Source: Propionibacterium cyclohexanicum
Lineage (GTDB): Bacteria; Actinomycetota; Actinomycetes; Propionibacteriales; Propionibacteriaceae
NCBI RefSeq assembly: GCF_900111365.1
Contig: NZ_FOGZ01000010.1
Location: forward strand, 1-64,000
Length of the DNA stretch: 64,000 nucleotides
Direction: 5' to 3'
Positions 34,968 to 38,757 of the stretch are shown piece after piece (the first letter of the stretch is position 1; each line of letters starts with the position of its first letter). The notes beneath the pieces are model-generated. The model saw only the letters and a program-made list of their open reading frames with translations. It was not told the DNA's origin and ran no database searches. A program made the position numbers and the translations under genes.

Positions 34968-35429
34968 TCAGCTGGGCGGCACGAGACTATCGAAACCTTC
35001 GCTTTCCGTAGTGGAACGGTCCTTCTCGAAGAGCATGTCAACTCCGGTGCGTCCTGCGCCGAAGCACAGCAGGACGAAGGCCACGGTGGCGAGCACCACG
35101 TTGTACTCGTAGCCACCCGAGGACAGATAGGGTCCCCAGCGGAATCGCAGCCAGACGACGATGAGAACATTCTGGGCGATGGCTATGATCGCCACCAGCC
35201 GGGTGAGGATGCCGAAGATGAGCATCACCCCGCCGGCCACCTCGAAGACGAGGGCTCCCCAGGCCATCAGTTCCGGTGCCGGCACGCCATGCTCGGTGAG
35301 CAAGAGCACTTCGGCGTCCATCCCGTGGATGTCCCAGCGGGCCCAGCCGTGCGCGATGAGCGCCAGCCCGAGCGTGACCCGTGCCACCAGCAGTCCGATG
35401 TCGTGGACGACGTTCATGAAGGTCGTCAT
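34968..35429 (-). CDS. DoxX-family membrane protein
   Basis: The 153-residue protein has four membrane helices. LLVARVTLGLALIAHGWARWD at the N-terminus and FEVAGGVMLIFGILTRLVAIIAIAQN in the middle are the DoxX signature parts. DoxX-like proteins sit in the cytoplasmic membrane; some take part in thiosulfate oxidation or, in mycobacteria, in a membrane-associated oxidoreductase complex linked to SodA and a thiosulfate sulfurtransferase. Neither partner is nearby. The ATG is preceded by GGGGGA at suitable spacing. Single gene, divergent from the methionine transporter region. Confidence 0.88.
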   Translation of the reverse strand: MTTFMNVVHDIGLLVARVTLGLALIAHGWARWDIHGMDAEVLLLTEHGVPAPELMAWGALVFEVAGGVMLIFGILTRLVAIIAIAQNVLIVVWLRFRWGPYLSSGGYEYNVVLATVAFVLLCFGAGRTGVDMLFEKDRSTTESEGFDSLVPPS

Positions 35430-35560
35430 GGCAGTCCCCCTTGCCTTGTGGGAGTGACACTACGTGTTCGGGGCGCGGTGGAGGCGTTGCGACCGTGGTG
35501 TGTGCCGCGCCATTGGGTCTCGACCTGGACCGTTGGCTGTGGTGCTGAGCATGGCAGGGT

Positions 35561-35590
35561 TTGACAGCGCTCCGAGCCACGGCCTACGGT
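35561..35590 (+). promoter_or_regulatory. promoter of the methionine-transporter leader
   Basis: TTGACA at 35561-35566 and TACGGT at 35585-35590 are separated by 18 bases. The -35 is a perfect sigma-70/SigA-type hexamer. Transcription would start near 35597, about 38 bases before the leader-peptide ATG, giving a compact leader RNA. Confidence 0.55.
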
Positions 35591-35634
35591 GACTGCACCG
35601 CCGGGGCGTCCGCCCCCCTGCCATGAGGATCCTG

Positions 35635-35742
35635 ATGAACATCATGTTGACCATCGCGAAGTCCGCCGATGCGTCCGCTGGTAGCTCCCTCATGATGATG
35701 GCGACCGATATGTGTTGTCGCCGAATGCTCTGCGCCTGCTGA
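35635..35742 (+). CDS. Met/Cys-rich leader peptide (candidate attenuator peptide)
   Basis: The 35-codon reading frame starts at ATG 35635, with AGGA at 35626-35629 as ribosome site, and stops at TGA 35740-35742. Its second half is strikingly enriched in two scarce amino acids: Met at codons 20-22, 26 and 31, and Cys at 27, 28, 33 and 35 (SLMMMATDMCC then RRMLCAC). The stop codon abuts a terminator, and the next gene is a methionine-type binding protein. The layout is that of a ribosome-stalling leader peptide sensing charged Met-tRNA and/or Cys-tRNA. This is inferred from sequence alone. Confidence 0.62.
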   Translation: MNIMLTIAKSADASAGSSLMMMATDMCCRRMLCAC

Positions 35743-35800
35743 AAAGGCCGCATTCGCAATTCACCTCGGGCGCCAGCGTGCTGACGCCCGGGCCTTTTCC
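35742..35800 (+). terminator. attenuator terminator upstream of the metQ homologue
   Basis: A GC-rich hairpin (CGGGCGCCAG at 35767-35776, CTGACGCCCG at 35781-35790, one C-A mismatch, loop CGTG) is followed directly by GGCCTTTTCC. AAAAGGCC at 35742-35749, overlapping the leader stop, is an exact complement of GGCCTTTT at 35791-35798. The alternative pairing GCGCCTG (35732-35738, last leader codons) with CGGGCGC (35767-35773) would remove the terminator's 5' arm. These mutually exclusive folds support attenuation. Confidence 0.6.
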
Positions 35801-35922
35801 CACAGGCTGTCACCCTGTGGCCAGGCACATCCGTTTCCTGTTTTCCCAGATCGCCCGGGTGGGCGCGCTTTCGCGTGCGCCGCCACGGGCGCGCATCCAT
35901 CCCCAGCATCGGAGTCAGAACA

Positions 35923-36876
35923 ATGAGCGACCAGAACCCCACCCACACCGACGCGCTGCCCGAGCGTCCCCACTCGAAGCCGAATGTGTGGCTGATCGTC
36001 GGCATCGCCGTCGTGGTCATCGCCCTGATCGTCGCCATCGTGGTCTATGCCACCGGGCGCAACAAGAAGGCCGATGCCGCCAACGTGACCGTGACGATCG
36101 GCGTCACCGATGAGGCCCAGAGCCACTGGGCCATCCTCAAGAAGAAGGCCGCAGCCGAGGGCATCAATGTGGTGACCAAGAACTTCAGCGACTACACGCA
36201 GGCCAACCCGGCATTGAGCCAGAAGCAACTCGACCTCAACGAGTTCCAGCACCTGCTCTACCTGGCGAACTACAACGTCTCGAACAACGACAACCTGACC
36301 CCCATCGGAGCCACCTTCATCGTGCCCTTGCCGCTGTACTCGCAGAAGCACACCTCACTCGACCAGATTCCCCGCGGCGGCAAGATCGCCATCCCCAATG
36401 ACCCGACGAACCAGGCCCGTGCCCTGCTCGTGCTGCAGGCTGCCAAACTCATCACGCTCAAGAACGGCGGCTCCGTCTTCTCGACGCCTGCCGATATCGA
36501 TGCCGCCAACTCCACCGTGAGCGTCACCCCGGTCGATGCTGCACAGACGGTTGCGGCGCTGCCCAGTGTGGACGGCGCGGTCATCAACAACAACTTCGCC
36601 GCCGACGCCAAGCTCGACCCGAGCAAGGCCCTCTACAAGGACGATCCGAACAATTCCTCAGCCGAGCCGTACATCAACGTGTTCGTCGCACGCGCCGAGG
36701 ACAAGGACAACGCCACCTACAAGCGAGTCGTCGAGCTGTACCACGAGACCGACGTCGTCAATGCCGCCAGGGCCGACTCCAAGGACACCGCAGTGATCGT
36801 GGATCGTCCAGCCAGCGAGCTGCAGACCATCCTCGACGGCCTGGAGGCGAAGGTGAAGGCGAGCAAGAACAAGTGA
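35923..36876 (+). CDS. metQ: methionine-type ABC transporter substrate-binding protein (NlpA/MetQ family)
   Basis: The 317-residue protein has the MetQ-type fold: VTIGVTDEAQSHWAILKKKAAAEGINVVTKNFSDYTQANPALSQKQLDLNEFQHLLYL, then IAIPNDPTNQARALLVLQAAKLITLK and a C-terminal VVELYHETDVV. Instead of a lipobox it begins with about 23 polar residues and a single helix (about 24-45) with no Cys, so it is probably membrane-anchored by an uncleaved segment. The ATG follows GGAG. First gene of metQ-metN-metI, downstream of the Met/Cys leader and terminator. A methionine role rests on family and operon. Confidence 0.85.
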   Translation: MSDQNPTHTDALPERPHSKPNVWLIVGIAVVVIALIVAIVVYATGRNKKADAANVTVTIGVTDEAQSHWAILKKKAAAEGINVVTKNFSDYTQANPALSQKQLDLNEFQHLLYLANYNVSNNDNLTPIGATFIVPLPLYSQKHTSLDQIPRGGKIAIPNDPTNQARALLVLQAAKLITLKNGGSVFSTPADIDAANSTVSVTPVDAAQTVAALPSVDGAVINNNFAADAKLDPSKALYKDDPNNSSAEPYINVFVARAEDKDNATYKRVVELYHETDVVNAARADSKDTAVIVDRPASELQTILDGLEAKVKASKNK

Positions 36877-36988: not shown

Positions 36989-38101
36989 ATGACAACCCAG
37001 ATTGCGTTCCACAATGCCGGCAAGGTCTTCCAGACCTCGTCGGGGCCGGTCACGGCACTCGAGAAGATCGACCTCGAGATCGACAAGGGCGAGATCTTCG
37101 CCGTCATCGGCTATTCCGGAGCTGGCAAGAGCACCCTCGTACGCCTCATCAATGGTCTGGAGCGCGTCACACAGGGCACTGTCTTCGTCAACGGCATCGA
37201 CATCACCCACCTGCCGGAGGGCAAACTGCGATCGGTGCGCCGCGAGATCGGCATGATCTTCCAACAGTTCAATCTCATGCGTTCCAAGACCGTGTACGGG
37301 AACATCGCCTATCCCCTCAAGCTCGCGAAGTGGAGCAAGGCCGACATCCAGGCGCGGGTCACTGAGCTGCTGAGCTTCGTGGGGCTCACCTCGAAGGCCT
37401 GGGTCTACCCGGATCAGCTGTCCGGCGGCCAGAAGCAGCGCGTCGGCATCGCCCGCGCGCTGGCCACCCGGCCCTCTGTGCTGCTGGCCGACGAGTCCAC
37501 GAGCGCGCTGGATCCCGAGACCACCCAGGATGTGCTCGCCCTGCTCCGGCGCGTGAACGAGGAACTGGGCGTGACAATCGTCGTCATCACCCACGAGATG
37601 GAGGTGGTGCGGGCGATCGCCGACCGGGTCGCCGTGCTCGACTCGGGGCAGCTCATCGAAGGTGGCAGCGTCGACGAGATCTTCGAGAATCCCAAGGCCG
37701 CCACCACGAGGCGCTTCGTCAACACGATCACGCACTACGATCCCGAACCAGGCGAGATCGAGCGTCTCCAGGCCGCCCGGCCCGGGGCCACTCTGGTGAG
37801 TATTCGCTCGGTCGATCCGGCCGAGTTCGGGCGCTGCCTGGCGGTGATCGGCGCCGATTCCGAGGTCAGCTTCGAGATCGTGCGCGGCGGCATCGTGCAG
37901 GTGAAGACCCGTTCGATCGGCAGTTTCACCGTGGCGCTGGACGGCCCGGCCGGTGCGGTGGCCCGGGCCGAGACGAGCCTGCGTGAGGTTGCCGGGCTGG
38001 CCGAGGAATTGACCCGCGGGGAGCACGCGCTGGATACCCCGGCGCCCGGCCGCCACGAGCTGGGAGAAGAACCGGACGCACCGATCGGAGCAGAGAAATG
38101 A
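36989..38101 (+). CDS. metN: methionine-type ABC transporter ATPase with NIL domain
   Basis: The 370-residue protein has an ATPase core with Walker A GYSGAGKST, Q-loop FQQFNLMRSKTVYGNIAYPLKLAKW (the MetN-specific stretch), signature LSGGQKQRVGIARAL and Walker B VLLADESTSALDPETT. A C-terminal NIL domain at about 265-335 (LVSIRSVDPAEFGRCLAVI, GGIVQVKTRSIGSFTVAL) in MetN binds methionine and trans-inhibits transport. A further 40 disordered residues follow. The ATG lacks a strong ribosome site (CAGGAG lies 6 bases upstream). It overlaps metI by 4 bp. Confidence 0.93.
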   Translation: MTTQIAFHNAGKVFQTSSGPVTALEKIDLEIDKGEIFAVIGYSGAGKSTLVRLINGLERVTQGTVFVNGIDITHLPEGKLRSVRREIGMIFQQFNLMRSKTVYGNIAYPLKLAKWSKADIQARVTELLSFVGLTSKAWVYPDQLSGGQKQRVGIARALATRPSVLLADESTSALDPETTQDVLALLRRVNEELGVTIVVITHEMEVVRAIADRVAVLDSGQLIEGGSVDEIFENPKAATTRRFVNTITHYDPEPGEIERLQAARPGATLVSIRSVDPAEFGRCLAVIGADSEVSFEIVRGGIVQVKTRSIGSFTVALDGPAGAVARAETSLREVAGLAEELTRGEHALDTPAPGRHELGEEPDAPIGAEK

Positions 38102-38757
38102 GCGACTGGGACTCCATCAAGTCCGTCTACTTCCAGTCCATCCTCGAGACCCTCTTCATGGTCGTCACGACGCTCATCGTCGGAGGGCTCGCCGGGCTGC
38201 TGCTCGGCCTAGGCCTGTACTCGACGCGAGCCGGCGGGCTGCTGGCCAACAAGTGGGTGCATACGGTGCTGAACGTCATCGTCAACATCATCCGCCCCAT
38301 CCCGTTCATCATCTTCGTCACCGCCATCGGACCTCTGACCCTGCGCGTCATGGGAACGACCATCGGCACGAGCGCTGCCACCTTCGCGCTGTGCGTCGCT
38401 GCCACCTTCGGTATCTCACGCATCGTCGAGCAGAACCTGGTCACCGTCGACCCCGGTGTCGTCGAGGCTGCCCGGGCGATGGGCGCCGGGCCATGGCGGG
38501 TGCTGTTCACGGTTGTCATCCCCGAGGCGCTGGGTCCCCTCATTCTCGGGTATACCTTCATCTTCGTCTCGGTGGTCGATATGACGGCTGTCGCCGGTGC
38601 GGTTGCCGGGGGCGGCCTGGGCCAGTTCGCCATCAGCTATGGCTATCAGCGCTTCAACTGGTCGGTCACGGCACTGGCCGTGGTGACGATCATCGTTCTC
38701 GTGCAGCTGGCCCAGTTCACTGGCAACACACTGGCCCGCAAGGCGCTGCGGCGCTGA
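38098..38757 (+). CDS. metI: methionine-type ABC transporter permease
   Basis: The 219-residue protein has five helices and the MetI patterns: LETLFMVVTTLIVGGLAGLLLGLGLY, NIIRPIPFIIFVTAIGPLTLRVMGTTIG and the EAA loop VEAARAMGAGPWRVLFTVVIPEALGPLILG, then VDMTAVAGAVAGGGLGQFAISYGYQRF. It forms the membrane channel with MetN. ATGA overlap with metN. Last gene of the operon. Confidence 0.94.
   Translation: MSDWDSIKSVYFQSILETLFMVVTTLIVGGLAGLLLGLGLYSTRAGGLLANKWVHTVLNVIVNIIRPIPFIIFVTAIGPLTLRVMGTTIGTSAATFALCVAATFGISRIVEQNLVTVDPGVVEAARAMGAGPWRVLFTVVIPEALGPLILGYTFIFVSVVDMTAVAGAVAGGGLGQFAISYGYQRFNWSVTALAVVTIIVLVQLAQFTGNTLARKALRR

Follow-up and report, generated by a model that had tools for sequence, protein, structure and literature searches.

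We propose that a short open reading frame ahead of a methionine-type ABC importer operon in Propionibacterium cyclohexanicum encodes a leader peptide, and we consider it probable that this 35-codon frame controls metQNI by attenuation in response to methionine, and probably also to cysteine. The frame lies at 35635..35742 on the + strand of the window, that is, the whole stretch of 64,000 nucleotides analysed here, and specifies the peptide MNIMLTIAKSADASAGSSLMMMATDMCCRRMLCAC; its assignment is based on the frame and on its conservation in relatives. The last 16 codons contain five Met, three of them consecutive (MMM, 35692..35700, + strand), and four Cys, including an adjacent pair (CC). A Shine-Dalgarno sequence, GAGGA at 35625-35629, stands 5 nt ahead of the ATG at 35635. 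An alternative in-frame ATG at 35623 would lengthen the frame to 39 codons, but it has no visible Shine-Dalgarno ahead of it. The gene upstream of the leader, of the DoxX family, is on the opposite strand, and the leader therefore needs a promoter of its own. A sigma-70-like promoter, TTGACA-18-TACGGT, is found by inspection at 35561..35590 on the + strand (boxes at 35561-35566 and 35585-35590, spacing 18) and is partly kept in relatives: 9 of the 16 close relatives checked, the window counted, carry TTGACA with a TANNNT box 17-18 nt further on upstream of the leader. From this promoter we infer a 5' UTR running from 35597 to 35634 (+ strand), which would comprise a hairpin and the Shine-Dalgarno sequence. 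The promoter boxes, ribosome site, frame and Met/Cys content announced in the original prediction were thus all recovered. A consensus scan of 35400-35930 with its own thresholds reported 0 promoter-like and 0 terminator-like sites, so the promoter and terminator calls rest on inspection, and for the promoter also on the relatives. The hairpin in the predicted 5' UTR, GGGGCGUCCGCCCC (35603-35616), is GC-rich; a genus mate (G120) carries GGGGCACCUGCCCC ahead of its own leader, and a GGCCC/GGGCC hairpin is present in L040, L041 and L044.

The operon downstream has the composition of a methionine importer. The first gene, metQ (35923..36876, + strand), encodes a methionine-type substrate-binding protein of the NlpA family, which matches PF03180 with an E value of 1.1e-65 and the NCBIfam MetQ models below their cut-offs; 22 solved relatives are listed for this product, some of them named MetQ. 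It is followed on the same strand by metN (36989..38101), an ABC ATPase whose best NCBIfam match is MetN, below the model cut-off, and whose C-terminal NIL domain is barely above the Pfam cut-off (24.1 vs 24 bits), and by metI (38098..38757), a permease identified by PF00528 (BPD permease). A short frame with an apparent ribosome site of its own upstream of such an operon is what would be expected of an attenuator.

Could the frame have arisen by chance? Nine Met/Cys in the last 16 codons were found in 1 of 714 window ORFs (20-80 aa, six frames), the runner-up having 6, and in none of 2000 dinucleotide shuffles of 35431-35922. The comparison of the leader across relatives, called for by the original prediction, was carried out in the family, taken as Propionibacteriaceae, where a search of 198 genomes gave metQ-like matches in 120. 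The leader counts cover the 50 highest-ranked metQ matches; 86 further listed matches, including those of the genus mates G118 and G119, lie outside them. Three of the 50 were dropped, L072 as too short and L079 and L080 as matching only residues 158-313, which left 47 upstream regions. The partial matches of L079 (G053:C1:25464-25931) and L080 (G052:C14:98566-99033) look as if the gene were 5'-truncated. Of the 47 regions, 33 contain an ORF whose last 20 residues include five or more Met/Cys; over 30 rounds of shuffling the number of such regions averaged 0.53 and never exceeded 2, and the reverse strand gave 0. By eye, 41 of the 47 regions keep the leader, and six (L050, L051, L052, L054, L055 and L058) have no clear one. 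Shuffles, reverse strand and relatives together rule out a chance ORF.

The 41 leaders picked by eye were used for the codon counts. Internal Met and Cys are both present in 40 of them, the exception being L075, which has Cys and lacks internal Met, and over 1129 residues Met accounts for 12.8% and Cys for 12.1%. A run of codons for the amino acid that the operon handles is thus conserved in relatives, a further property expected of an attenuator. Examples are the leader of the genus mate G120, which ends in LVMMPMLCCGRMLCAC, and those of genera g9 (MTAAFSHTVDADLRAASMMMCRPCCLRMLGTC), g2 (MATATIHRAHADRRASMMMCRCDAMCCRMPGTC) and g28 (MVNRFEPLPGRMMCCCRPASGACGRMRV). Peptide sequences diverge strongly, with a pN/pS of 0.81 in seven g9 leaders and 0.86 in five g2 leaders. 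These values in two genera show no sign of a conserved protein and speak against a peptide that functions as such, so support for coding comes from the codon classes and the frame. Leader residues at large are free to vary and the Met/Cys classes are not, and varied peptides that keep Met and Cys are what is expected if the codons matter and not the peptide. When sought by peptide similarity alone, the leader gave mostly weak matches (29 of 198 genomes at E up to 10, its own included), among which that of G120 was the one checked as preceding metQ.

Similar leaders are present beyond the family. Among 73 scanned metQ loci from named organisms (80 in total, with L125 and L193-L198 left out), 16 have a Met/Cys leader by eye. 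One of these, L158 (Propioniciclava), is a family member, with the same leader as L060, that of G126, and on this shared leader rests the assignment of the family to Propionibacteriaceae; the remaining 15, which include the near-identical pair L131 and L136, were counted as outside the family and belong to Cellulomonas, Isoptericola, Cellulosimicrobium, Oerskovia, Ornithinimicrobium, Phytoactinopolyspora, Sanguibacter and others. No clear leader was seen in the other 57 regions, including the scanned Bifidobacterium, Curtobacterium and Corynebacterium loci. The original prediction did not recognise such an element as described, but the kind is on record: the 2021 reannotation of S. lividans lists metL (MSTTSDRTPATEATTTPGARCMCRRMCAF) before metNIQ as a methionine leader (PMC8079986). 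We accordingly count the element in the window as another example of this kind. We used the metL peptide as a query and obtained 30 loci, of which 27 were read (L253-L255 lie outside). Leaders of the type GARCMCRMCAF, followed by the stop and with variants, make up 25 of the 27, all from a single genus (f20 g50), presumed to be Streptomyces because it matches the S. lividans peptide, and an evident MetN start lies downstream in 20 of these 25. In most Streptomyces loci among L226-L251 a hairpin of the form CTCGCGCCCCGAAGCGAG was seen by eye within a few tens of bases after the metL stop; L244 has a compensated variant of it. The metL of S. lividans TK24 (SLIV_29928) and the window leader have in common a Met/Cys peptide upstream of an importer operon, and the in-frame CGA-AUG pair discussed below is common to the 25 metL relatives and the window. 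The two arrangements differ in that, in the S. lividans case as far as that portion of the source describes it, metN comes first, the transcript is leaderless and a typical Rho-independent terminator is missing (PMC8079986), whereas in the window metQ comes first, the leader has a Shine-Dalgarno sequence, and its stop is fused to a hairpin with UUUU after it. For Propionibacteriaceae we found no report of a methionine leader in the open-licence literature.

A strongly preserved feature of these leaders is a pair of codons. Arg directly before Met is encoded by CGA in 69 of 73 cases when the three leader sets are pooled, while the other Arg codons of the leaders are CGA in 7 of 263. The bias recurs in each set: 34/37 against 5/118 in the 41 family leaders, 25/26 against 1/73 in Streptomyces (where the Arg counts include the two loci judged non-leaders) and 10/10 against 1/72 in the 15 named leaders. 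The figures count sequences and not independent events. Ordinary codon context is ruled out as the cause, since in ORFs of at least 150 codons CGA stands before ATG in 12 of 141 cases (2/27 in the window and 3/25, 6/29 and 1/60 in the three locus sets), a set that probably holds some antisense frames, which would raise CGA. All 69 occurrences of CGAATG are in frame (34/34 in the family, 25/25 in Streptomyces and 10/10 in the named set). In the family the hexamer lies 1 to 20 codons from the stop; it is missing from 9 of the 41 leaders in the family and from 6 of the 15 in the named set. In the window the pair, Arg-Met, is at 35722..35727 on the + strand. A role of CGAAUG as a cis-pairing RNA element was considered and rejected, as partner sites are found at frequencies of 0.12 vs 0.11 downstream and 0.09 vs 0.11 upstream in 66 leaders. 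CGAATG is followed by C or T 31 times out of 34 in the family and 25 times out of 25 in Streptomyces, by A 3 times and never by G; in a +1 reading after CGA, C or T at this position would make the next codon UGY, i.e. Cys. No report of a CGA-AUG constraint in such leaders was found in the open-licence literature, and as a strongly preserved leader feature the pair looks unreported.

What might this codon pair do? The draft genome to which the window belongs has 45 tRNA matches; according to ARAGORN, the Arg tRNAs among them have the anticodons ACG, CCG, CCT and TCT, and none is tRNA-Arg(UCG), so CGA should depend on inosine-adenosine (I-A) wobble. In yeast, a CGA in the P site is considered to impair, through its I-A pair, the decoding step that follows (PMC6301793), and in the Salmonella his leader CGA codons led to strong de-attenuation, which the authors, in the relevant section, read as slow translation (PMC4046918). 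From the sequences, this suggests that CGA may be a built-in slow codon beside the sensed AUG. A bolder version, which we put forward tentatively and regard as rather doubtful, is that CGA-AUG is a dedicated sensor, in which I-A wobble of the P-site tRNA-Arg(ICG) would cripple decoding of the next AUG and render the ribosome hypersensitive to charged Met-tRNA.

In trp and his leaders, regulatory codons in the leader frame are followed by a terminator-like hairpin. The window resembles these attenuators in both respects, and in the his leader, too, a slow CGA alters attenuation, as stated in the part of the study concerned with it (PMC4046918). It is unlike them in carrying two amino acids in one tract and in that pairing of its candidate antiterminator is not conserved. 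The terminator-like hairpin, recognized by inspection and folding, extends over 35742..35798 (+ strand) as AAAAGGCC...GGGCGCCAGCGUGCUGACGCCC...GGCC followed by UUUU. Its 5' arm AAAAGGCC (35742-35749) shares the last A of the stop codon (35740-35742) and can pair with GGCCTTTT, which ends at 35798. Compared with 60 dinucleotide shuffles, the structure around the stop scores z = -3.3; the whole 218-nt stretch reaches just z = -1.75. Over the 41 family leaders the mean z around the stop is -1.42, i.e. somewhat stronger than shuffles. Hairpins with U-rich tails at or below -18 kcal/mol follow 9 of the 41 leaders vs 33 of 246 shuffles, which is no clear enrichment, and a cruder scan at or below -12 kcal/mol found 2 of 41 vs a null of 3.7%; intrinsic terminators are thus not a clear general feature of the leaders. 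The statement that the frame stops right at a terminator fits the window and does not clearly carry over to the leader group.

The folding model proposes an antiterminator (35722..35756, + strand) in which CGAAUGC (35722-35728) would pair with GCAUUCG (35750-35756). We rate this candidate as weak because such pairing is not enriched across the leaders (8 of 66, or 0.12 vs a null of 0.11). Placing the A site of a model ribosome on the Met-Met-Met codons gives the antiterminator pair a P of 0.71-0.79, and in ribosome-free RNA it is also preferred by the model (P 0.82). With the ribosome modelled at the later Met (35710), at Cys 35713 and at Cys 35716, P falls to 0.09, 0.00 and 0.00. When CGA, AUG or CUC occupies the A site the terminator is favoured in the model (P 0.80-0.90); on this calculation, stalling at the AUG of CGA-AUG would turn the operon off. 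A ribosome on the stop codon favours neither structure (terminator 0.00, antiterminator 0.19). Since the other ribosome positions fit less well, a simple switch is reproduced by the model for the Met-Met-Met codons only.

Our model of attenuation at metQNI is as follows. The leader would be transcribed from its own promoter, and the ribosome would meet the Met/Cys tract immediately ahead of the stop codon. If charged Met-tRNA (probably Cys-tRNA as well) runs short, the ribosome would wait in the tract and the RNA downstream would adopt a fold that permits expression of the importer; when both charged tRNAs are plentiful, it would run on and expression would be cut. Through I-A wobble, the CGA that precedes the final Met codon probably delays the ribosome there and tunes the response. 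The cut in the window would most simply be termination at the stop-fused hairpin, which is the step of which we are least sure. A reading compatible with leader-peptide control, to which we give somewhat less than an even chance, keeps the same leader peptide and places the last step elsewhere than in an intrinsic terminator: stalling would expose the metQ ribosome site or block Rho, as has been proposed for mycobacterial cysteine leaders. In agreement with this reading, U-tract terminators are not generally enriched, and the folding model yields a terminator switch only in part. Seliverstov described cysteine leaders in Mycobacterium and P. acnes in 2005, found leaders of this type that lack terminators and suggested Rho (PMC1262725); translation attenuation of M. 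smegmatis cysteine genes is cited in the pertinent passage of PMC13236596; and the portion of the S. lividans reannotation already quoted gives metL no typical terminator. Against it speaks the fact that in the window, and likewise in L061, L063, L064, L065, L066 and L068, a strong hairpin with a U-rich tail lies at the leader stop or beyond it. Leader-peptide control is likely, and an intrinsic, a Rho-dependent and a translational last step are all candidates. The original proposal that ribosome stalling in a leader peptide governs methionine uptake is supported in part, through the comparison of relatives.

How does this leader relate to the cysteine leaders? Canestrari reportedly worked on cysteine leader peptides of Actinobacteria in 2020. 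Such leaders resemble the one in the window: they are short frames that carry Cys codons close to the stop and frequently precede sulfur genes. We searched 296 genomes of the class and 14 controls with NF042936 (Ms4527A cysteine leader). Matches of the type RRHVDLxRVCSAxCR occur in 250 of the 296 genomes at E up to 1, a level at which 5 of the 14 controls also match, and 17 of the 296 pass the cut-off. The genes after 20 of these leaders comprise seven nitrite/sulfite reductases, two PLP enzymes, which we read as cysteine synthase, one cysteine dioxygenase, six genes of other families and four without a Pfam match. In their last 22 residues, 32 of 34 cysteine leaders have 0-2 Met and two have 3; these two, with 3 Met and 2 Cys, stand ahead of the PLP enzymes in the genus mates G118 and G119 (L206 and L211) and end in RRHVDMMRVASAMVRCSCSR and RRHIDMMRVVSVAMCRTCSR. 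Another cysteine leader, L203 of G120, ends in VRPHIDLVRTDSCLCC and is followed by a gene with a glutathione S-transferase C-terminal domain. The window leader differs from this type: 40 cysteine leaders hold few Met and none has CGAATG, and the window leader does not match NF042936, so membership in Ms4527A was rejected. A metQ relative from g22 scores 13.9 bits against NF042936 (cut-off 45), and the reading of the g22 metQ leaders (SRRHIDMMRAGSQRCR) as a cysteine leader whose Leu-Leu may have turned into Met-Met is weakly supported. That the window leader senses cysteine only, its Met codons being incidental or serving another purpose, is improbable in our estimation. The breadth of cysteine-type leaders in the class, often tied to sulfur genes, and the metQ leader L075, with its Cys and no internal Met, would suit such sensing; Met is, however, as prominent as Cys in the 41 metQ leaders, and the seven reductase leaders have just 0-2 Met in their last 22 residues. 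Dual sensing of methionine and cysteine is plausible.

Two further explanations have very little probability. Soft metals can be bound by Met- and Cys-rich peptides, and a nascent peptide that binds a metal such as copper might set expression; the operon, however, resembles a methionine importer with an NIL domain, Met and Cys are freely variable in their order and spacing, and what is constrained at CGA is a codon, not the peptide. It is equally hard to credit that the frame plays no part and that sensing falls to a riboswitch or T-box. S-box riboswitches do serve methionine genes elsewhere among bacteria, according to the Seliverstov study, which also stated that conserved RNA structures were not observed ahead of methionine operons (PMC1262725). 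Rfam at gathering score returned two matches only in the whole window, a tRNA and a cobalamin riboswitch (RF00174, 14937-15072, - strand, 42.3 bits), both elsewhere than the leader, which leaves the leader without a known RNA family at that score.

What would leader-peptide control of metQNI mean? If the model is right, methionine uptake in many Actinobacteria would be under a translated sensor and not a riboswitch or a repressor, and the single listed Streptomyces example would extend to other groups. One conserved codon pair would be singled out, whose role could be tested by a single synonymous change. Should the more tentative idea of CGA-AUG as a dedicated sensor hold, attenuators would detect an amino acid by means of a pair of codons as well as a run of them, in an architecture kept across several actinobacterial groups.
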